From a virus: DNA of 20,812 nt. How positions within the stretch are numbered: position 1 is the stretch's first letter; each line of letters opens with the position of its first letter. A program made the translations under genes and the position numbers. A model generated the notes under the pieces. The model saw only the letters and a list, made by a program, of their open reading frames with translations, ran no database searches and had not been told where the DNA came from. This document shows positions 263 to 14,863 of this stretch, in pieces. The stretch covers positions 1-20,812 of the IMG/VR virus record IMGVR_UViG_3300025435_000117, one strand, 5' to 3'.

Positions 263-474
263 TGCCACTAATAATTGCTGGTGATCTTGTCAAAGCAGAA
301 CCGCAACCTCCTGGAAAGTCTTTCAGGGACTTCAGGCAGGAGGTTGCTGCTCAAGTTGAGAATAAGAATATCCAGACTAATTTGAAGAAGATTGAGGCTA
401 AGAAAGCAGAAGTTAAGAACGCTAAGAGAACTTCGGCTTATCATCGAGATATGACGACAGTTCATAAAGTATAA
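262..474 (+). CDS. Small Lys-rich hypothetical protein
   Basis: A 70-residue protein begins in a TAATG overlap with the preceding gene. The N-terminus is hydrophobic and short (MPLIIAGDLV). The rest is charged and helix-prone, with a Lys/Glu-rich stretch (KKIEAKKAEVKNAKR) around residues 42-56. No catalytic motif is visible and I do not recognise it. The stop codon lies inside the TATAAATA box at 470-477, so the promoter of the next transcript overlaps the end of this gene. The coupled start and co-direction support it being real. Confidence 0.6.
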   Translation: MPLIIAGDLVKAEPQPPGKSFRDFRQEVAAQVENKNIQTNLKKIEAKKAEVKNAKRTSAYHRDMTTVHKV

Positions 475-477
475 ATA
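470..477 (+). promoter_or_regulatory. T4-type late promoter box (TATAAATA)
   Basis: This is an exact match to TATAAATA, the single -10 element of T4-family late promoters, which are read by a gp55-type sigma factor with the sliding clamp. It lies 32 bases before the ATG of a structural protein gene and just before a perfect AGGAGG site at 495-500. About 0.6 exact copies would be expected by chance on both strands of this window. Position, orientation and gene type all fit late transcription of the virion genes. Confidence 0.75.
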
Positions 478-2962: not shown

Positions 2963-3158
2963 CTTAAGAGAAGATGGCGCGGCCTTTGCATCTACCACAC
3001 CAGCAAATGCAGCTGGCTCTGGTGGGATTGCTGGAATTGGTGCGGGTGCAGCTGATCAACGTGAGCCCGGAGTAAATAAGAAAAAGAAGAAGCTCCGCGA
3101 CATCACAGTAATGTCAACGCCAATTAAGAGACTCTTGCCAAATGACCTCGAACGATAG
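2955..3158 (+). CDS. Small Ala/Gly-rich basic protein
   Basis: A 67-residue protein that overlaps both neighbours. Residues 8-35 are Ala/Gly-rich (AAFASTTPANAAGSGGIAG). Residues 42-46 are a run of five lysines, followed by LRDITVMSTPIKRLLPNDLER. The Ala/Gly/Pro linker followed by a basic patch suggests a flexible peptide that could bind nucleic acid or a virion surface, but this is only composition. I do not recognise a family. Reality is supported by the tight overlaps (8 bases upstream, 17 bases downstream) and the preserved frame. Confidence 0.5.
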   Translation: MTNLREDGAAFASTTPANAAGSGGIAGIGAGAADQREPGVNKKKKKLRDITVMSTPIKRLLPNDLER

Positions 3159-3522
3159 AATCGACATCGCTCTAGAGAAGCTAACCGAAATCTCAAGTGA
3201 GCTTAAAGCAATGATTGCAGTTCACGAGCAGCGCTTGAACCAGCAAGAAAAAGATACTGGCATCATCTTTAAGCTTCTAGAAAATAGAAGAAAAGAAATG
3301 GATGACAAGATCAATGAGGTCTATGTCGATATGAGTACAAAAGACAACAGCATCCTCGAGCACATCGAGCAGATGAGAAAAGAAGCCAACGAGCAGCACA
3401 AAGCTTTGAATGATAAGATCGGCAAGCTCGAGAAGTTCATCTGGGTAGCAATCGGCGGCGGTATGGTTCTCGTCTGGTTGCTATCATACGTAGCAAATTA
3501 CTTTAAGATTATGGGCCACTGA
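3142..3522 (+). CDS. Coiled-coil protein with C-terminal membrane segment
   Basis: A 126-residue protein. Residues 5-97 are almost wholly charged heptad-like helix (for example EISSELKAMIAVHEQRLNQQ), followed by one strong hydrophobic segment at about 98-118 (KFIWVAIGGGMVLVWLLSYV) and a short tail. This order (soluble coiled coil, then one membrane helix near the C-terminus) resembles XhlA/haemolysin-type and other small phage lysis-associated proteins. The similarity is architectural only. It is the last gene of the structural run, before a new promoter. It shares its layout with the reverse-strand proteins at 5967-7321, so it may act in the same membrane process. Confidence 0.65.
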   Translation: MTSNDRIDIALEKLTEISSELKAMIAVHEQRLNQQEKDTGIIFKLLENRRKEMDDKINEVYVDMSTKDNSILEHIEQMRKEANEQHKALNDKIGKLEKFIWVAIGGGMVLVWLLSYVANYFKIMGH

Positions 3523-4812: not shown

Positions 4813-5497
4813 TGCTAGAATCGTAGCGGTGACGCAGCCAACCATCAGTAATCCCGATGATCCATTTGACTCTTTAATGGCAGTCGATGACTTCATCGCA
4901 TACGTGGCTCGAGTGTCTAATCCGTCCAACCAGCACAATACTCTTACAGCTAATAAGCTTATTCGGTATCTAGCCAAGCACAAGCACTGGTCACCATTTG
5001 AGATGGTGCACGTGGTTATGGAGATCAACACGACACGAGACATCGCTCGTCAGATCCTGCGTCACCGCAGCTTCACATTTCAGGAGTTTAGCCAGCGCTA
5101 TGCAGACCCTACAGGAGATCTTGGCTTTAGCCATCGAGAGGCACGTTTGCAGGATACAAAGAATCGTCAGAACTCTATCGAGTTATCTCCAAACGACAAG
5201 AAGATCGCTGAGCGCTGGGAGCAAGAACAGAAGTTTATCATTGACAATGTTAAGCGTAGCTATGATTGGGCGATTAAAGCAGGAATTGCAAAAGAGCAGG
5301 CACGGGCAGTTTTACCAGAAGGTCTTACAAATAGCCGTATGTATATGGCTGGTTCTCTGCGTAGCTGGATTCATTACTGCCAACTGAGAATGTCTAATGG
5401 AACTCAGAAAGAGCATCAGGAAGTCGCTACTGATGCTTGGTATCAGCTTACTGCTAAGTTTCCGTCCCTCAAAGACAGCTTAGACATCGGTAATTAA
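4805..5497 (+). CDS. thyX: Flavin-dependent thymidylate synthase ThyX
   Basis: A 230-residue protein of normal ThyX length. The family signature RHR-x7-S is complete: R86 H87 R88, then S96 (RHRSFTFQEFSQRY). The N-terminal HWSPFE at 61-66 and the C-terminal R/S-rich segment (NSRMYMAGSLRSWIHY) also fit. ThyX makes dTMP from dUMP using FAD, NADPH and methylene-tetrahydrofolate. It works here with NrdA/NrdB to supply thymidine nucleotides for phage DNA. It overlaps the preceding small gene by 8 bases. Its 3' end overlaps the end of the convergent DUF4337 gene by 4 bases with no visible terminator, so convergent transcripts could run into each other. Confidence 0.95.
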   Translation: MHNARIVAVTQPTISNPDDPFDSLMAVDDFIAYVARVSNPSNQHNTLTANKLIRYLAKHKHWSPFEMVHVVMEINTTRDIARQILRHRSFTFQEFSQRYADPTGDLGFSHREARLQDTKNRQNSIELSPNDKKIAERWEQEQKFIIDNVKRSYDWAIKAGIAKEQARAVLPEGLTNSRMYMAGSLRSWIHYCQLRMSNGTQKEHQEVATDAWYQLTAKFPSLKDSLDIGN

Positions 5498-5967
5498 AAG
5501 AAAAGCCAGTATCCATTAGAGAATAGCATGCTTGCAAATACTGCACAGCCTACGCTTGCCCAGAGTAGCTCCATGCTAACTGCGAGAATGGAAGTAGAAG
5601 AGAGAACCATGGCGATCTGAAGAAATGTAATAGCCATTGAGTACCAAGGGCTGCGCTTCTTAGCTTCGTCTCTATCAGCTTCGAGTTTACGAGCCTCCGC
5701 CATGATCTCTCTCTTCTCACTCTCGTACTTCGCAATCATCTTCTCGTCCGGCTCTACGCGAAGCTCATAGATATTCTGTTTAATTGACTTTGCCTGATAG
5801 AAAGACCAAGTGTCGTTGATAGAAAGAGTAGCGCTTAAGATCTTGCTGCTGTTGCCATTTGACACGAGAGAAAATACTGCGAGAAGTAGAGCAAAGATAG
5901 AGATCGTGACAGCGCCACGTCCTTTCATAATTGCTTCACCCTCTGATCTTGACATACCTTTTAGCAT
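5494..5967 (-). CDS. DUF4337-family membrane protein
   Basis: A 157-residue protein with a membrane helix at about residues 19-37 (AVTISIFALLLAVFSLV). The DUF4337-like core has NDTWSFYQAKSIKQNIYELR at 51-70. A charged helix follows (KYESEKREIMAEARKLEADR, 80-99), then two more hydrophobic helices at about 109-131 and 134-156. This order and the 'NDTW-x-F-x-QAKS' motif match my memory of DUF4337, a membrane family of unknown function found in bacteria. The start has a strong GGAGGAAAG site just upstream and overlaps the previous gene's stop as TAATG. It is the last gene of the reverse-strand cassette and ends inside the thyX stop region. Three membrane passes are predicted. The role is unknown. 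Confidence 0.75.
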   Translation of the reverse strand: MLKGMSRSEGEAIMKGRGAVTISIFALLLAVFSLVSNGNSSKILSATLSINDTWSFYQAKSIKQNIYELRVEPDEKMIAKYESEKREIMAEARKLEADRDEAKKRSPWYSMAITFLQIAMVLSSTSILAVSMELLWASVGCAVFASMLFSNGYWLFF

Positions 5968-6269
5968 TACTTTCCTCCAATTAAACTCTTAAGTAAACCT
6001 ACACCCTGCTTGGCCTGCATCATGTCAACTGGACCACTCTGAATAGAACCCCAGACTACTGCAACTAGTAACATCAATGTTAGTCCGCAGTTAATGATCT
6101 GGATTACTGAACCTATACCAAGAAGATGCTCTACCCTAACTAACTCACGGGCGAGTAAGCTAACCATCTCGACTTCAGTCTTACATCTCTCAGCTTCATT
6201 TAACCAGAATGCTTTTTCTTTCATCTCGGGAGGGTATCTTCTCTTGACTTCCTGATCTACTATGGCCAT
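5967..6269 (-). CDS. Small single-pass membrane protein
   Basis: A 100-residue protein. Residues 1-48 are charged and helical (EMKEKAFWLNEAERCKTEVE), followed by a hydrophobic segment at about 50-74 (IGSVIQIINCGLTLMLLVAV) and a short Gly/Lys tail. No enzyme motif is seen and I do not recognise a family. Its start overlaps the stop of the upstream gene as TAATG, and its own stop does the same with the DUF4337 gene, so three genes are translationally chained. Its size and single membrane helix would suit a holin or a small membrane adaptor, but this is only architecture. Confidence 0.65.
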   Translation of the reverse strand: MAIVDQEVKRRYPPEMKEKAFWLNEAERCKTEVEMVSLLARELVRVEHLLGIGSVIQIINCGLTLMLLVAVVWGSIQSGPVDMMQAKQGVGLLKSLIGGK

Positions 6270-6820
6270 TATTTGATACCAGCTTTAAATTCTAGTATCG
6301 ACAACCTCTTGTCAACGTTGCCTCTTGATATAGCCGCGTCTAAAGCTAGTTTATCTACGCGGTCGCCCAGTTCTTCTCTCAGCTGCTGTCTACCCAATGC
6401 AGCTTCTGCCTTTATCGCTGCCCTAGCTTGCGCAGCATCTGCCTGCATCTCGAGTGTAATCTTTTGATTGGATGCGATGCTCTTTTCTCTGTCGAGAGTC
6501 ATAGCGGCTCTTGCCAAAGCCGCTTCTTTTTCTACCTTGTCTATCTTCTCATTCAGAGATTCTCTGATCTGTGCCATGTCGATCGTCGTTCCCTGTGGAG
6601 GAATGGCCTTATTATCAGCATTGACGACTACGGCAACTTTGGATTTAAGTTGAATGATCTCGTTGTTAGCGGCACTCAAGGCCGACATCAAGTAAACGAC
6701 GCAGCTAAAGAGAATAGGAATGCCAGCGAATACGATCTTCTCAATCAATGCGCCCTTACTTTGGTTGGAAGCTAACTGTTGCTCGACCGCCGCGATCTTT
6801 TTATCTTCGTCTGTTAACAT
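6269..6820 (-). CDS. Membrane-anchored coiled-coil protein
   Basis: A 183-residue protein. A short charged N-terminus is followed by one membrane helix at about residues 28-50 (IVFAGIPILFSCVVYLMSAL). A long Ala/Glu/Lys-rich coiled coil spans roughly 85-175 (for example ALARAAMTLDREKSIASNQK and AAIKAEAALGRQQLREEL). The anchor-plus-coil layout is similar to i-spanins and other envelope-spanning proteins, though longer than most. It has GGAG eight bases before the ATG. It belongs to a four-gene reverse-strand run in which every product is a membrane protein. The function is unknown. Confidence 0.65.
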   Translation of the reverse strand: MLTDEDKKIAAVEQQLASNQSKGALIEKIVFAGIPILFSCVVYLMSALSAANNEIIQLKSKVAVVVNADNKAIPPQGTTIDMAQIRESLNEKIDKVEKEAALARAAMTLDREKSIASNQKITLEMQADAAQARAAIKAEAALGRQQLREELGDRVDKLALDAAISRGNVDKRLSILEFKAGIK

Positions 6821-6841
6821 GGTTTACTCCATTTTTTATTA

Positions 6842-7321
6842 TTAGAACCCAGGTAGTATCTTAGATAACATGTGATAAGTTGAGTAATCACCACTGGCTT
6901 TTGCCATCATAGCAAACGCTGCTAAGAATACCCATAAGATTGCTGGAACGATGATTATTAACACGCCGCCGAGAATCATTAGCTGTTCTCTCTCTTCTGC
7001 AGCTTCTTTTGCTTCTATCTCAGCGCGCGCGGCAGCTTTAGCCAGTTCGGCTTTATCTTTAAAGTACTTTTCTTTTTCTGCTGCTGAGAGGGTAACGAGC
7101 ATGCGAGCTTCTTCATCTTGAAGCTTCTTTGCATTCTCGGATCTTATTTTGGCATTCTTAATGGCTTGTCTTTGATTCTGTATCTTCATCTTGGCATTTG
7201 CAGCCTCTTTCATGCCCTTACGGTCTCTAAAGAGGTCTGTTATTCCAAATATGGACTCAGCTAGAACTTCGCCCCAAGCCTTGCCTAACTTGGCGGCATC
7301 TTTTGGATCTGTAGGTAGCAT
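6842..7321 (-). CDS. Coiled-coil protein with C-terminal membrane helix
   Basis: The start at 7321 is preferred because GAGAG lies about seven bases upstream; an in-frame ATG at 7354 lacks any SD site. The 159-residue product has a Gly/Lys N-terminus (KLGKAWGEVLAESIFGITDL). A long basic and Ala-rich helix follows at about 35-112, then a strong membrane helix at about 114-138 (LMILGGVLIIIVPAILWVFL) and a short tail. I do not recognise the family. It is the first gene after the minus-strand late promoter box at 7416-7409. Its architecture echoes that of the plus-strand gene at 3142-3522. Confidence 0.6.
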   Translation of the reverse strand: MLPTDPKDAAKLGKAWGEVLAESIFGITDLFRDRKGMKEAANAKMKIQNQRQAIKNAKIRSENAKKLQDEEARMLVTLSAAEKEKYFKDKAELAKAAARAEIEAKEAAEEREQLMILGGVLIIIVPAILWVFLAAFAMMAKASGDYSTYHMLSKILPGF

Positions 7322-7408
7322 TGAAATTCTCTCTTTTTTTATTTTTGTAAACATAAACTAAAGAGAGTTCAATCAGCGTTACATATAAGTAGTTGGTCCA
7401 ATCGTTAA

Positions 7409-7416
7409 TATTTATA
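7409..7416 (-). promoter_or_regulatory. Reverse-strand T4-type late promoter box
   Basis: The plus strand reads TATTTATA, so the minus strand carries an exact TATAAATA. It is about 88 bases upstream of the ATG of the first reverse-strand membrane gene and points toward it. It is one of only two exact copies found in the window, and both precede a gene run. It overlaps the region just before the plcP-like gene's SD site (7416-7421), so late transcription would start outward from the front of that gene. Confidence 0.7.
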
Positions 7417-7425
7417 GAGAGAAAC

Positions 7426-8196
7426 ATGGTAGAAGCCGCCAGATATAAGTCTATATTCATTTCCGACATACATTTAGGCACCAGAGGTAGCAAAGCAGAG
7501 GTTTTGCTATCGTTTCTCAAGGACGTGGAGTGCGACAACTTATTCTTGGTCGGAGATATATTTGATGGGTGGAGACTAAAGAAGGGTTGGTACTGGCCGC
7601 AGGAACACTCGACGGTCATACAGAAGATTCTTAGAATGTCTCGCAAGGGAACTAAGATAGTCTATCTTCCGGGAAACCACGACGAGTTTATGCGTCAGTT
7701 TCTAGAGCATAACTTTGGAAGCGTAGAGCTCCACGACGAGACAGTCTACGAGGCTCTTAATGGTAAGAAGTACGTCATAGTTCACGGCGATAAGTTTGAC
7801 TTGGTTACCATGAATATGAAGTGGCTGGCACATGTCGGCGACTGGGCATACTCTCTCCTCCTAAATATAAACACGGGACTGCACTGGGCTAGATCGTATC
7901 TCAGACTTCCCTATTGGTCACTATCTAAGTGGGCAAAACATAAAGTAAAAGAGGCAGTAAATTTTATAGGTAACTATGAAGATTCTCTCGCTCATTATGC
8001 TCGAATTAAACACGTTGATGGTGTTATCTGCGGGCATATTCATTCGGCTAATATTTCTATAATAGAAGATGTAGAGTACATGAACTGTGGGGACTGGGTT
8101 GAGTCGTGCACAGCATTGGTTGAGACTTTGGATGGAAAGTTTGAAATCATTCATTGGGGAGAAACCGATGTGGATACTAATCATACTGGCAATTAA
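7426..8196 (+). CDS. plcP: PlcP-like calcineurin-type phosphoesterase
   Basis: A 256-residue metallophosphoesterase with all metal-site motifs: D14-x-H16 (SDIHLG), G43-D44-x-x-D47, G83-N84-H85-D86, H120-G-D and G203-H204-I-H206. The surrounding segments WYWPQ (56-60), YWSLSKWAKHKVKEAVNFIG (163-182) and GDWVESC (222-228) are those I recall from the alphaproteobacterial PlcP branch of COG2908. That branch is often mis-labelled UDP-2,3-diacylglucosamine hydrolase (LpxH). PlcP removes phosphate-containing head groups from phosphatidylcholine and phosphatidylethanolamine at the inner membrane, leaving diacylglycerol. The ATG at 7426 with AGAGAG is preferred over an in-frame TTG at 7393. An Agt-like glycosyltransferase follows, as in bacterial lipid-remodelling loci. 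The substrate is inferred; a lipid A role cannot be excluded. Confidence 0.82.
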   Translation: MVEAARYKSIFISDIHLGTRGSKAEVLLSFLKDVECDNLFLVGDIFDGWRLKKGWYWPQEHSTVIQKILRMSRKGTKIVYLPGNHDEFMRQFLEHNFGSVELHDETVYEALNGKKYVIVHGDKFDLVTMNMKWLAHVGDWAYSLLLNINTGLHWARSYLRLPYWSLSKWAKHKVKEAVNFIGNYEDSLAHYARIKHVDGVICGHIHSANISIIEDVEYMNCGDWVESCTALVETLDGKFEIIHWGETDVDTNHTGN

Positions 8197-8338
8197 TGTT
8201 AACAATCCTGATGACATTCCTGGACAGGTTACTTTAAAGTTTCAAAACGGTCAGCAGTGCTACGAAGCACTGGCCTCACTTCAGTACAAGCTTAAATTTA
8301 GTAACTTTTATGTGTCGGGCAAATGTCAAAGATCTTAA
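8168..8338 (+). CDS. 56-residue protein with hydrophobic N-terminus
   Basis: The ATG at 8168 has a very strong SD site (GGGGAG at 8156-8161, six bases upstream), so I choose it over a longer frame that begins inside the plcP-like gene. The product starts MWILIILAINV, which could be a signal peptide or anchor. It continues with DIPGQVTLKFQNGQQCYEAL and ends with a second cysteine (SGKCQRS); the two cysteines could pair outside the cytoplasm. It overlaps the plcP-like gene by 29 bases and the agt-like gene by 16, linking the two enzymes translationally. Small proteins of this pattern occur in T4-like marine phages. The function is unknown. Confidence 0.65.
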   Translation: MWILIILAINVNNPDDIPGQVTLKFQNGQQCYEALASLQYKLKFSNFYVSGKCQRS

Positions 8339-9399
8339 TCGTAACAGATTGCTATGAGCCATCAATCAACGGCGTCGTAACAACACTCAAGAACATAAAG
8401 AAAGAAGCCGAGAAAGACGGGTACCAAGTGCTCGTCATAGAGCCGTCTCTCTTTCGCAACTTCAGCTCAATGATATATCCGGACGTGAAGATCTCTATTC
8501 CAATCGGCTTCAGCAAGATGATAGATGAGTTTGGTCCGGACTATATTCATATCGCGACAGAGGGAGTTCTTGGGATCTCAGCTCTGTTCTACTGCAAGAA
8601 GAAGAACTACAACTTCACCACTGCTTTTCATACCAAGTGGGGCGAGTTCCTCAACAGTATTCTTCACATCCCAGTTAGCTGGACAAACTCTTGGCTCAGA
8701 AGATTCCACAAGAACAAGATCGTGTTCTGCACCTCGCAGTCGATGATAGACTACTTGACAAAAGAGAAGATAGGTAAGACACTTATCAGCTGGTCTCGCG
8801 GGGTCGACACAGATATCTTTGGCCCGCCAAGACTGACTCGCAATCAAAATAATATCTTCATCAAGCCGAGAAACCTGTTAACAGTCAATAGAATAAGCAA
8901 AGAAAAGAATCTCGATGCCTTCTGTCAGCTGTCGCATTTCCTATATAATCTTACGGTGGTCGGAGACGGCCCCTATCTCAAAGAACTAAAATCAAAGTAT
9001 CCAAAAGTAAAATTCAAGGGAGCACTTACTGGTAAGGAGCTAGCTGCGGAATATGCTGCAGCCGACTGTTTCGTCTTTCCCAGTAAGAATGACACGTTTG
9101 GCGTGGTGAACATCGAGGCTCAGACTATGGGAACACCGGTCGCGGCTTATCCCGTAACCGGTCCAATTGATATTATTGTAAATGGAGTCAATGGATATGT
9201 GCACAATGATCTTAATGTTGCTATAAAGCACGCATTAAAGGTTGACAGAAAGGCCTGCTTTGATTATACTATAGATAGGTACTCGTGGAAGAGCGTTTGG
9301 AATACATTTAAAGAAAACATGGTAGGAGTAGAAAAGAATGATGGCGACGATTCAGGTAGTAAAGAGGGACGGAACAAAGGAGCTGCTGGACCTCAATAA
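8323..9399 (+). CDS. agt: Agt-like family 1/GT4 glycosyltransferase
   Basis: A 358-residue GT-B enzyme. The N-terminal domain has ILIVTDCYEPSINGVVTTL (4-22), YIHIATEG (74-81) and FHTKWGEF (102-109). The hinge has SWSRGVDTDIFGPP (156-169). The C-terminal donor-binding domain has VVGDGPYLKEL (212-222) and FVFPSKNDTFGVVNIEA (250-266). The order and wording resemble the Agt-type glycosyltransferases next to plcP in Alphaproteobacteria, which add glucose or glucuronic acid to diacylglycerol. It would use the product of the neighbouring PlcP-like enzyme. Oddly, the last 20 residues (339-358) are low-complexity and come from reading out of frame through the first 62 bases of nrdA. Donor and acceptor are not shown by sequence. 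Confidence 0.8.
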   Translation: MSKILIVTDCYEPSINGVVTTLKNIKKEAEKDGYQVLVIEPSLFRNFSSMIYPDVKISIPIGFSKMIDEFGPDYIHIATEGVLGISALFYCKKKNYNFTTAFHTKWGEFLNSILHIPVSWTNSWLRRFHKNKIVFCTSQSMIDYLTKEKIGKTLISWSRGVDTDIFGPPRLTRNQNNIFIKPRNLLTVNRISKEKNLDAFCQLSHFLYNLTVVGDGPYLKELKSKYPKVKFKGALTGKELAAEYAAADCFVFPSKNDTFGVVNIEAQTMGTPVAAYPVTGPIDIIVNGVNGYVHNDLNVAIKHALKVDRKACFDYTIDRYSWKSVWNTFKENMVGVEKNDGDDSGSKEGRNKGAAGPQ

Positions 9400-12292: not shown

Positions 12293-13399
12293 ATGAGTGT
12301 ATTCGATTCAACTAACCGTAAAGATCCTACAAAGGTAAGAGCGTTCTTTGACGATCCGCCTACCATTGCTCGCTACGACAAGCAGAAGTACCCATTCCTT
12401 GAGAAGCTGACGACTCAGCAGCTCGGGTTCTTCTGGCGTCCAGAGGAGATCGACATCTATCGCGATGCTAAAGACTTCAAAGGATTGACACCGCATGAGC
12501 AGCACATCTTTACATCAAACCTCAAGCGTCAGATCCTACTCGACAGTGTACAAGGTAGAGCTCCTACGGTCGCCTTCGGTCCAATTTGTAGTCTACCAGA
12601 ACTTGAGAACTGGATCCTTACATGGGCATTTAGCGAGTCCATCCACTCTAGATCATACACTCATATTATCAGAAACATCTACTCTAACCCATCAGAGGTG
12701 TTCGACGGTATTCTAGACATGCAGGAGATCGTAGACTGCGCTGGCGACATCAGCAAGTACTACGATGAGTTGATTGCTTATAATAACGACTTGGAACATT
12801 CAAAAAATTTAGGTCAGAAAATTCTGCATGAAAAGTATGAGCACAAGAAAGCTCTGTGGCTCACACTTATGTCAGTCAACATTCTTGAGGGCGTTCGCTT
12901 CTACGTCAGCTTTGCATGCTCGTGGGCATTTGCAGAGTTGAAGAAGATGGAGGGTAATGCCAAGATTATCAAGTTGATTGCACGAGATGAGAACCTGCAT
13001 CTCGCCGGTACTCAACAGATGCTCAAGGTACTCGTAACCGATGATCCCGACTTCGCTAAGATTCGCGAAGAGACCAAGGACGAGTGCATCAAGATGTTTA
13101 AAGATGCAGCCGAGCAAGAGAAGGCTTGGGCTCACTACCTGTTCAAGGATGGCTCGATGATCGGTCTCAACGAGACACTTCTCAACGACTACGTTGAGTG
13201 GATCTGCAACAAGCGAATGACTGCAGTCGGACTCACGCCTATATATAAGAATGGATCAAACCCGCTACCTTGGACACAGAAGTGGATCAGCGGCGCGGAG
13301 GTTCAAGTCGCTCCACAGGAAACAGAGATCACCAGCTACATTACTGGTGGCGTTAAGAAGGATATATCTGATGAAACTTTTAAAGGCTTTTCTCTATAG
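12293..13399 (+). CDS. nrdB: Ribonucleoside-diphosphate reductase, small subunit
   Basis: A 368-residue class Ia NrdB that holds the di-iron centre and tyrosyl radical for NrdA. Ligands D84 (ILLDSVQGR), E115 and H118 (FSESIHSRSY) and the radical Y122 fall at the same numbers as in E. coli. E199 (ILEGVRFY), E233 and H236 (ARDENLHL) complete the iron site. The family is therefore a standard iron/tyrosyl enzyme, not a phenylalanine-type or tyrosine-less variant. AAGGA six bases upstream supports the start. The 3' end overlaps the exported nuclease gene by 29 bases. Confidence 0.96.
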   Translation: MSVFDSTNRKDPTKVRAFFDDPPTIARYDKQKYPFLEKLTTQQLGFFWRPEEIDIYRDAKDFKGLTPHEQHIFTSNLKRQILLDSVQGRAPTVAFGPICSLPELENWILTWAFSESIHSRSYTHIIRNIYSNPSEVFDGILDMQEIVDCAGDISKYYDELIAYNNDLEHSKNLGQKILHEKYEHKKALWLTLMSVNILEGVRFYVSFACSWAFAELKKMEGNAKIIKLIARDENLHLAGTQQMLKVLVTDDPDFAKIREETKDECIKMFKDAAEQEKAWAHYLFKDGSMIGLNETLLNDYVEWICNKRMTAVGLTPIYKNGSNPLPWTQKWISGAEVQVAPQETEITSYITGGVKKDISDETFKGFSL

Positions 13400-14177
13400 T
13401 CTAGTACTATTCACAACCGCTACATTTGCAGCGGACCAGCAACCACCTAAACCAGTAGCTTCATGCGCAGCGCAGGTACCCTATGGCACACCTTCAACCG
13501 TTGCTAATCACCCAGTTATCTGTCGCAATGCTTATATCTTGGAGCATGACCCAGTTGCTAAGATCCCGAATTGGGTTGCTTGGACTCTTACGCCTGAGCA
13601 TGCTATTGGCTGCGTTGCTCGGACTAATGCTTTCGCTACTGATCAATCTCTACCTAACGGAGCCCGCTCTACTCCCGCTGATTACGCCCATTCTGGCTAC
13701 GATCAGGGTCATCTAGCAAACGACGCCGACATGTCGTGGGATGATCAGGTAGAGCATGAGTCTTTCTACATGTCAAACATGTCTCCTCAGCTGCCCTCAG
13801 TTAATCGCGGCACTTGGAAGAACTTAGAATCCGCGGCGCGCGCGTGGGTTTATTCTACCAAGCATCCGTTCACCATCTATGCTGGCAACGTGTACTCTTC
13901 TTCATCGAAGACGATCGGCGACGACAAGGTGGTGGTACCCGACACTCTGTTCAAGATCGTCATCGACGATGTGACAAAGAAGTCATATGCATTTTTATTC
14001 CCTCACAAGGACGGTCTCGACTCAGACTTTACTAAATATCAGGTAACAGTTGCCGAGGTTGAAGTGGCTTCTAAGATTGTATTCCCAGTACCGGATTCAA
14101 AGACAACTAAGAATCCAGTTCCAGTGACTGACCTTAAAACATTGGCAGCAGACAAGAAGAAGCAATGTAAGGAGTAA
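13371..14177 (+). CDS. Exported DNA/RNA non-specific endonuclease (NucA type)
   Basis: The ATG at 13371 has AAGGA at 13358-13362 and opens a clear signal peptide (MKLLKAFLYSLVLFTTATFA, probable cleavage after residue 20). The longer frame upstream is only nrdB read out of frame. The 268-residue product carries the beta-beta-alpha-metal nuclease core: D111-Q-G-H114 in place of the usual DRGH, N136 (MSNMSPQ) and N145-R-G-T-W, which fit the magnesium-binding Asn and its surroundings. Four cysteines (32, 51, 81, 266) could form disulfides outside the cytoplasm. It would cut DNA and RNA without sequence preference in the periplasm or after lysis. The DQGH variant also occurs in related phage enzymes as I recall. 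Activity is not proven. Confidence 0.85.
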   Translation: MKLLKAFLYSLVLFTTATFAADQQPPKPVASCAAQVPYGTPSTVANHPVICRNAYILEHDPVAKIPNWVAWTLTPEHAIGCVARTNAFATDQSLPNGARSTPADYAHSGYDQGHLANDADMSWDDQVEHESFYMSNMSPQLPSVNRGTWKNLESAARAWVYSTKHPFTIYAGNVYSSSSKTIGDDKVVVPDTLFKIVIDDVTKKSYAFLFPHKDGLDSDFTKYQVTVAEVEVASKIVFPVPDSKTTKNPVPVTDLKTLAADKKKQCKE

Positions 14178-14180
14178 GAC

Positions 14181-14453
14181 ATGAGCTGGAAATTAGGTTC
14201 TACCATCATGGATAACATCATCGAAGCACTTAAAGATCGCATCGATGATGAGGCAGTCAGAGAAGAAGTATACGCGACTCTTATTGAAGTTTTCATGGAG
14301 AATGACTGTGAAAATCTCGATGAGTGCTATGGTATAGACTCAGCATTTGACTCGGCACTAGACGATGCCAGCTTTGACCTCGACGATGAACTAGATGAAG
14401 AGCATATCTTCGACGAGGATGAAGATGATGATGATGATGAAGAAGACGAGTAA
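14181..14453 (+). CDS. Very acidic small phage protein
   Basis: A 90-residue protein starting MSWKLGSTIMDNIIEALKDR, with AAGGAG at 14167-14172 as a strong SD site. The N-terminal half is helical with a CENLDECYG turn at about residues 43-51. The C-terminal third is almost only Asp and Glu, including an uninterrupted run near residues 78-90. I recall proteins with the same N-terminus in T4-like marine phages, without known function. A polyanionic tail could mimic DNA or bind a basic protein, but this is only composition. The stop overlaps the next start as TAATG. Confidence 0.65.
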   Translation: MSWKLGSTIMDNIIEALKDRIDDEAVREEVYATLIEVFMENDCENLDECYGIDSAFDSALDDASFDLDDELDEEHIFDEDEDDDDDEEDE

Positions 14454-14863
14454 TGTCCTATGACAATCCTTGGCTCTATAACGGGCAGGTTGTCGATTCT
14501 GAAGTGTTAGAAAACTATCTGGGGTTCGTGTACTTGATCACGAACCTCACTAACAATAAGAAGTACATTGGTAAGAAACTCCTGAAGAGAACCAAGACAA
14601 AAGTCGTCAAGGGCAAGAAAAAGAGATCACTCGTTGAAAGCGACTGGAAAGATTATTACGGTTCCAATAGAGAGCTGGCGGAAGACGTCGAGAAGCTTGG
14701 AATCCACAGCTTCAAAAGAGAAATCACGCGATTCTGTACCAAGAAGGGTGAGCTCAGTTATTATGAAGCACAGGCACAATTTGCTGTTGACATATTGCAC
14801 AGAGATGATTATTATAATGGATGGATCAGCGTAAAGGTACAGAGATCACACTTACCTAAATGA
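14453..14863 (+). CDS. GIY-YIG-like nuclease family protein
   Basis: A 136-residue protein. The segment FVYLITNLTNNKKYIGKK (25-42) is a GIY-YIG-type motif with V-Y in the first half and Y-I-G in the second. A basic loop (KKLLKRTKTKVVKGKKKRS, 41-59) follows, and a candidate catalytic Glu lies at 105 (YYEAQAQF). Full-length GIY-YIG nucleases cut DNA; T4 DenA and Seg enzymes belong to the same superfamily. No separate DNA-binding domain is attached, so it is either a small free-standing nuclease or a homologue with a changed role. It starts in a TAATG overlap. It lies in the host-DNA/nucleotide gene block, compatible with recycling host DNA. Confidence 0.7.
   Translation: MSYDNPWLYNGQVVDSEVLENYLGFVYLITNLTNNKKYIGKKLLKRTKTKVVKGKKKRSLVESDWKDYYGSNRELAEDVEKLGIHSFKREITRFCTKKGELSYYEAQAQFAVDILHRDDYYNGWISVKVQRSHLPK

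Follow-up and report, generated by a model that had tools for sequence, protein, structure and literature searches.

A probable late operon of membrane proteins in a freshwater T4-like virus is a candidate accessory lysis module

The 20,812-base virus record IMGVR_UViG_3300025435_000117, analyzed over its whole length (positions 1 to 20,812, hereafter the window), contains four adjacent minus-strand genes whose products, P1 to P4, all have hydrophobic transmembrane (TM) stretches by hydropathy (Table 1). TAATG stop-start overlaps at 6269 (P3/P2) and 5967 (P2/P1) link three of the genes, a gap of 21 nucleotides (nt) separates P4 from P3, and the 3' end of P1 overlaps that of thyX by 4 nt. The convergent thyX gene on the P1 side matched PF02511 (E 8.7e-40), and the divergent gene on the P4 side encodes a calcineurin-like phosphoesterase (PF00149, E 1.2e-11), which fits its designation as plcP in a first-pass annotation made from the DNA sequence alone. 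That annotation had described four adjacent membrane protein genes, three of them joined by TAATG, lying between thyX and plcP as the only reverse-strand genes of the window, with a DUF4337 member among them and long coiled coils in at least two. Open reading frame (ORF) coordinates, family matches and hydropathy bore this description out: long charged helical or coiled-coil parts were found in P3 and P4, and inspection of the ORFs of the window gave no further convincing gene on the minus strand. The start of P4 was revised, since its homologues begin at MLPTDPK, from 7354, the end of the full ORF, to a likely position of 7321. Between the window and a related 62.8-kb contig (G001), the ratios of nonsynonymous to synonymous substitution rates (dN/dS) were 0.084 for P1, 0.013 for P2, 0.024 for P3 and 0.038 for P4, with dS saturated for P2 and P4, and by this sequence comparison the four are real genes under strong purifying selection.

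Table 1. Positions of the four genes and their upstream promoter box in the window
Feature	Coordinates	Strand	Description
T4-type late promoter box TATAAATA	7409..7416	(-)	exact; about 88 nt upstream of P4 start codon; position kept in relatives
P4	6842..7321	(-)	159 amino acids (aa); first gene of the operon; MLPTDPK start from homologues
P3	6269..6820	(-)	183 aa; most conserved member
P2	5967..6269	(-)	100 aa
P1 = DUF4337 (PF14235)	5494..5967	(-)	157 aa; last gene of the operon

The four products differ in predicted architecture. P4 combines an amphipathic N-terminal segment beginning MLPTDPK with a charged coiled coil and a hydrophobic C-terminal anchor, either a single tail anchor or a tight hairpin (TM 122-154 by hydropathy, in the 170-aa numbering), and its Pfam matches were at chance level only. 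P2 is composed of a short helix, one TM segment (49-77 by hydropathy) and a small amphipathic tail, an arrangement like that of XhlA or N4 gp63. P3 has a short N-terminal segment, a near-invariant TM segment (VEKIVFAGIPILFSCVVYLM; 23-52 by hydropathy), a near-invariant loop (NADNKAIPPQGTTIDMAQIRE) and a long C-terminal helix; the AlphaFold2 model places helices at 4-62 and 78-179, on either side of the loop (predicted local distance difference test score [pLDDT] 79.5, predicted template modeling score [pTM] 0.29). Neither P2 nor P3 matched any Pfam family, and P3 found nothing usable among the sequences of solved structures (best E 0.34) and only uninformative matches in a fold search against viral models (best E 2.1). 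A likeness between the loop of P3 and periplasmic segments of ExbD/TolR was considered and dropped for want of Pfam profile support.

P1 belongs to DUF4337 (PF14235), a family without an assigned function, which it matched over model positions 5-161 of 161 with a score of 110.4 bits against a gathering cut-off of 27 (E 1.3e-31). It consists of TM1, a helical hairpin bearing the motif DTWSFYQAKSIKQ, and TM2-TM3; hydropathy marks segments at 13-32 and 110-132 in P1 and three TM segments in its relatives, and the AlphaFold2 model has helices at 7-68, 75-129 and 132-154 (pLDDT 85.1, pTM 0.68). A fold search against the PDB and viral models gave no match at E 0.001, comparison with the sequences of solved structures gave none, and VIA-align scores (Z up to 11.2) were to generic helical bundles and thus uninformative.

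The first-pass annotation had noted an exact late-promoter box on the cassette, and the octamer TATAAATA is indeed present before P4. It also occurs at 470-477 (+), just ahead of a 335-aa plus-strand ORF (510-1517) without a known family. Within the window two copies are not significant (0.71 expected; two or more in 17 of 100 shuffled sequences); the significance of the box comes from the conservation of its position across relatives. Among 35 nonredundant P4 loci, the core ATAAATA lay no more than 130 nt upstream of the P4 start codon in 26 (2.8 expected from shuffled sequences) and the full TATAAATA in 15 (1.1 expected), mostly at -68 to -92, while the other genes of the same loci had these elements in 101/686 and 69/686 cases, respectively. 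In larger related contigs the late box is strongly biased to one strand, and a sigma-70 scan detected no excess of promoter-like sites. Since the box is conserved in relatives, the operon is very likely to be transcribed by T4-type late machinery.

Comparison with related contigs revealed both the persistence of the cassette and its variability. Contig G001 has the identical order P4-P3-P2-P1 in the same setting, flanked by thyX on the P1 side and by plcP on the P4 side. Other T4-like contigs have P4-P2-P3-P1 (G004, G008 and L007, with a divergent SLT gene in G004 and G008), P4-P3-P1 after a signal-peptide SLT gene (G003 and G015), P4-P3 (G005 and G007), P3 alone (G006 and G012), or, in G002, P4-P2-P1 without P3 and with a holin gene adjoining P4. 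In nonredundant loci, another cassette member was found within 2.5 kb of P4 in 24/37 cases and of P1 in 38/64, and P2 stood within 2.5 kb of P4 in 18/19. The first-pass annotation had looked to joint occurrence in other phages; the full set does recur, in G001, G004, G008 and L007, but it is not obligate, and the cassette is modular, its members having been gained, lost and reordered. Searches with tblastn of P1 to P4 and a second DUF4337 protein found no match in isolate phages.

P3 provides the clearest link to lysis. The family has at least 298 relatives on viral contigs, with a mean column identity of 67% in an alignment of 23 members, and tblastn searches of 50,697 isolate phage records with the window P3 and another P3 were negative. 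Most of its relatives outside the T4-like phages sit in a recognizable lysis cassette, ordered c2 (a 77-aa TM/coil protein), often c5 (157 aa, C-terminally anchored), P3, c6 (70 aa), c1 (174 aa, with C-terminal TM segments) and endolysin. One of the endolysin clusters was present in 56/79 P3 loci, only 2 of those 56 having it on the other strand, and the enzymes include GH108 (E 7.8e-28), GH24 lysozyme (5.9e-48), N-acetylmuramidase (7.4e-57) and SLT (3e-13) types. A lysis gene lay within 2.5 kb of P3 in 41/58 nonredundant loci, compared with 5/121 control genes located more than 3.5 kb away. P3 was also more conserved than each neighboring family on the same contig pairs, endolysins included, in a comparison whose loci had been selected by P3 similarity. 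P3 is a widespread, highly conserved and previously undescribed lysis-locus family, forming the core of many lysis cassettes.

The architecture of P3 raises the alternative that the cassette is a third envelope-disruption device, in which P3 would act as an inner-membrane-anchored periplasmic rod that helps to break the outer membrane and the other proteins would serve as anchors. The predicted single N-terminal TM segment and the long helix modeled after it would give the i-spanin topology (PMC6139136), and the coil differs in length among homologues by blocks of 11 and 22 residues. An o-spanin partner is missing from this picture: no same-strand lipobox ORF lies within -2.0/+2.5 kb of the window P3, and one was found in only 5/91 P3 loci, whereas genuine Rz/Rz1 pairs coexist with P3 in relatives and in L052 directly adjoin it, next to GH19 and holin genes. 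Spanins, moreover, are usually far less conserved than P3. P3 was accordingly rejected as a member of a two-component spanin of the Rz/Rz1 kind, with which it shares only the predicted layout, and the wider envelope-disruption reading strikes us as distinctly unlikely.

Several further observations concern P3 loci. A group of 174- to 194-aa proteins (L141 4886-5470 and homologues in L139, L152, L154, L156 and L168) has a P3-like layout of a TM segment followed by a long coil; with no convincing homology to P3, they precede c5-DUF4337-holin and appear to be analogues at the P3 position. In L080 (3810-4538) and other c8 loci the GH24 lysozymes have a C-terminal TM segment, and c1 seems to be absent from cassettes with such enzymes and present with soluble GH108 or muramidase endolysins. 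A P3 homologue with 72% identity (L087, CANCHK010000124.1) is on a contig binned with an Opitutae metagenome-assembled genome that also has a DUF4337 gene; the contig is probably viral or a prophage. The lone P3 of G012 has its own TATAAATA box, and a trypsin-like protease gene (L010 1099-1920; PF13365, E 3.9e-22) converges on it.

Lysis genes also recur beside the other members. DUF4337, with at least 137 relatives in viral contigs, directly precedes a holin of the PF11351 (GTA_holin_3TM)/phrog_3427 type in L139-143, L152, L154, L156 and L189, precedes one with a single small ORF between them in L168 and L169, and in L196 has a start codon overlapping the stop codon of a GH19 endolysin gene. 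In the literature library searched, DUF4337 is mentioned by only two papers, neither with a title that points to phages, and no relevant paper was found; the link of this family to phage lysis loci is new here. For P4, a lysis gene was found within 2.5 kb in 8/37 nonredundant loci, compared with 2/111 control genes.

The c5 proteins are probably distant homologues of P4. Both matched phrog_32327 (c5 at E 8.9e-9, P4 at E 0.003), and their profiles aligned at E 1.8e-4 with an hhalign probability of only 49%, mostly over the C-terminal part; in the T4-like contig G013, P3 is accompanied by c5 instead of P4. The phrog_32327/c5 proteins, whose function is not known, occur in marine and freshwater phages (HMO-2011 gp60, Roseobacter CRP phages and Limnohabitans phage DC31) and, like P4, have an MxDP start, a coil and a C-terminal TM segment and adjoin P3 or DUF4337 together with lysis genes; the c5 profile used for co-occurrence counts was the product of iterative building, and some false positives due to coiled coils may be included. 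c5 lies upstream of the lysozyme gene in HMO-2011 and comes after an annotated holin in MW202496, a Caudoviricetes record. In DC31, the nearest isolate found, it is followed by Rz, within which an Rz1-like lipoprotein is encoded, and by an L-alanyl-D-glutamate peptidase. The DC31 lysis cassette also encodes an EF-hand protein with two TM segments, possibly a calcium-binding holin-like or regulator protein, and such a protein is inserted into the P4-P2-P3 cassette in L008 (5678-5992), L202 (4591-4911) and L120 (4482-4820).

Could the cassette instead serve as the principal holin of the phage, in place of the usual one? In Escherichia phage N4 the pinholin, gp63, carries a helical domain in the cytoplasm and is anchored by its C terminus, and lysis is regulated by gp62, which has two TM segments (PMC12642591). 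By hydropathy, P2 (TM 49-77 of 100) and P4 (122-154 of 170) would fit the class III layout of gp63. In L222, moreover, the order is P4-P2-lysozyme-lipoprotein, with P4-P2 directly before the lysozyme and no recognized holin. PF11351/phrog_3427 holins nevertheless coexist with these families in G002, G003, G005, L052 and other loci, so replacement of the holin appears very improbable. The converse notion, suggested by G002, that P3 and a canonical holin exclude each other was rejected, as both are present in G003, G005 and L052.

The standard lysis genes of relatives are encoded apart from the cassette. A PF11351-type holin occurs in G002, G003 and G005, SLT in G002, G003, G004, G006, G008 and G015, and GH19 in G001 and G004; Rz/Rz1 accompany SLT and GH19 in G004 and a GH19 endolysin in G014, whose P1 is 96% identical to that of the window. 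The usual holin, endolysin and spanin genes, to which the first-pass annotation had pointed, are thus found elsewhere in relatives, and the cassette itself is not that basic set, P3 being neither the sole spanin nor a replacement for the holin.

We favor, at somewhat better than even confidence, the explanation that this cassette of a freshwater T4-like virus is a late operon for an accessory inner-membrane lysis module of holin partners or timing regulators, a predicted role that the gene context of P1 to P4 makes probable. Such a module would be analogous, not homologous, to N4 gp62/gp63, the closest working model that has been studied by experiment. The N4 cassette, gp60 to gp63, encodes an Rz-like spanin, a SAR endolysin, the regulator and the pinholin; like it, the operon described here would supply several small TM proteins, one of them predicted to be C-terminally anchored with a cytoplasmic helix, and several relatives are likely to have an exported endolysin (the signal-peptide SLT). 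Unlike the N4 genes, those described here lie apart from endolysin and spanins in a probable late operon of their own, include the long-coil P3 and DUF4337, and have no homology to gp62 or gp63 (at most 4.1 bits in hmmsearch and 13% probability in hhalign).

In the model we propose, P1 to P4 would be expressed late, from the conserved ATAAATA promoter, and build up in the inner membrane alongside a separate canonical holin. P4 and P2 would be held by C-terminal anchors, with their helices in the cytoplasm, P3 by an N-terminal anchor, its long coiled coil probably lying in the periplasm, and DUF4337 by three TM segments, with its helical hairpin. The proteins would most likely assemble with or beside the holin, fixing, sharpening or postponing the onset of membrane permeabilization, after which Rz/Rz1 and an endolysin encoded elsewhere (GH19 or signal-peptide SLT) would finish lysis.

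Several points weigh against an accessory lysis role. None of P1 to P4 matched a holin or spanin family in Pfam, PHROGs or NCBIfam, including the PF11351/phrog_3427 holins that adjoin DUF4337 and P4 in other phages, and none has sequence homology to a known holin, antiholin or spanin. Because canonical lysis genes are present elsewhere, the module is dispensable for basic lysis, and no endolysin or holin gene adjoins the cassette in G006, G012 or the window. Lysis-gene enrichment around DUF4337 is modest (15/64, compared with 17/168 for controls from the same loci) because many relatives have only unlabeled neighbors. The counts come from loci chosen by similarity to P1, P3 or P4 and are not a random sample. 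The suggestion of a lysis or holin/spanin-like module in the first-pass annotation therefore survives in part: recurrence of the families beside holins, endolysins and spanins and the conserved late promoter support a link to lysis, while identity as holin or spanin is not supported, given the lack of a family match, the standard genes elsewhere and the absence of an o-spanin by P3.

A rather unlikely alternative is that these late inner-membrane proteins form a superinfection exclusion system or lysis-inhibition sensor, detecting or blocking an incoming phage and stalling lysis, as T4 RI, T, Imm and Sp do collectively. The predicted membrane and periplasmic coil architecture would suit such a role, and the strong conservation of P3 across phages that otherwise differ is what might be expected of a factor that faces a component common to their hosts. 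In T4, and possibly in N4, there is a functional link between genes for exclusion and those for lysis (PMC12642591). P1 to P4, however, match no known exclusion families, PADLOC models of anti-phage defense gave no match (the best, at E 0.0078, was a coiled-coil match), and the recurrent neighbors are endolysins and holins. Exclusion genes are also usually early, and the promoter of this operon is of the late type.

A bolder extension of the accessory lysis module, which we think unlikely, is that P1 to P4 and interchangeable relatives form an undescribed modular membrane complex, spread by horizontal transfer through many unrelated and uncultured phages of fresh water, in which the triggering of the holin is physically tied to the condition of the envelope. 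Such a complex, which would have a coil on either side of the inner membrane as well as the DUF4337 hairpin protein, might serve as a transmembrane lysis clock or sensor.

These findings provide the first testable functional context for DUF4337 and a highly conserved lysis-locus family, P3, that is absent from the isolate phage records searched. If the module does control lysis timing, it would be relevant to the latent period and burst size of abundant freshwater phages that have not been cultured, and lysis control would extend well beyond the set of holin, endolysin and spanin.

Other genes of the window merit mention. The plcP-like phosphoesterase gene adjoining the operon is followed by one for a GT4 glycosyltransferase (7426-9399, plus strand; PF00534, E 9.2e-21), a pair resembling the plcP-agt lipid-remodeling pair of phosphate-starved bacteria. 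A DNA/RNA nonspecific endonuclease gene (13251-14177, plus strand; PF01223, E 5e-44) overlaps the end of nrdB and has a likely signal peptide beginning inside the ORF (MKLLKAFLYSLVLFTTATFAA); similar secreted nucleases are encoded in G001, G004 and G005. A SegE-type GIY-YIG homing endonuclease is encoded at 14453-14863 (plus strand; PF19835, E 2.3e-36). Directly before the primase gene, a DUF7201 protein (3142-3522, plus strand; E 3.2e-16) has a coiled coil and a C-terminal TM segment; its homologue in L052 directly follows the holin, and it may be another lysis-associated protein.

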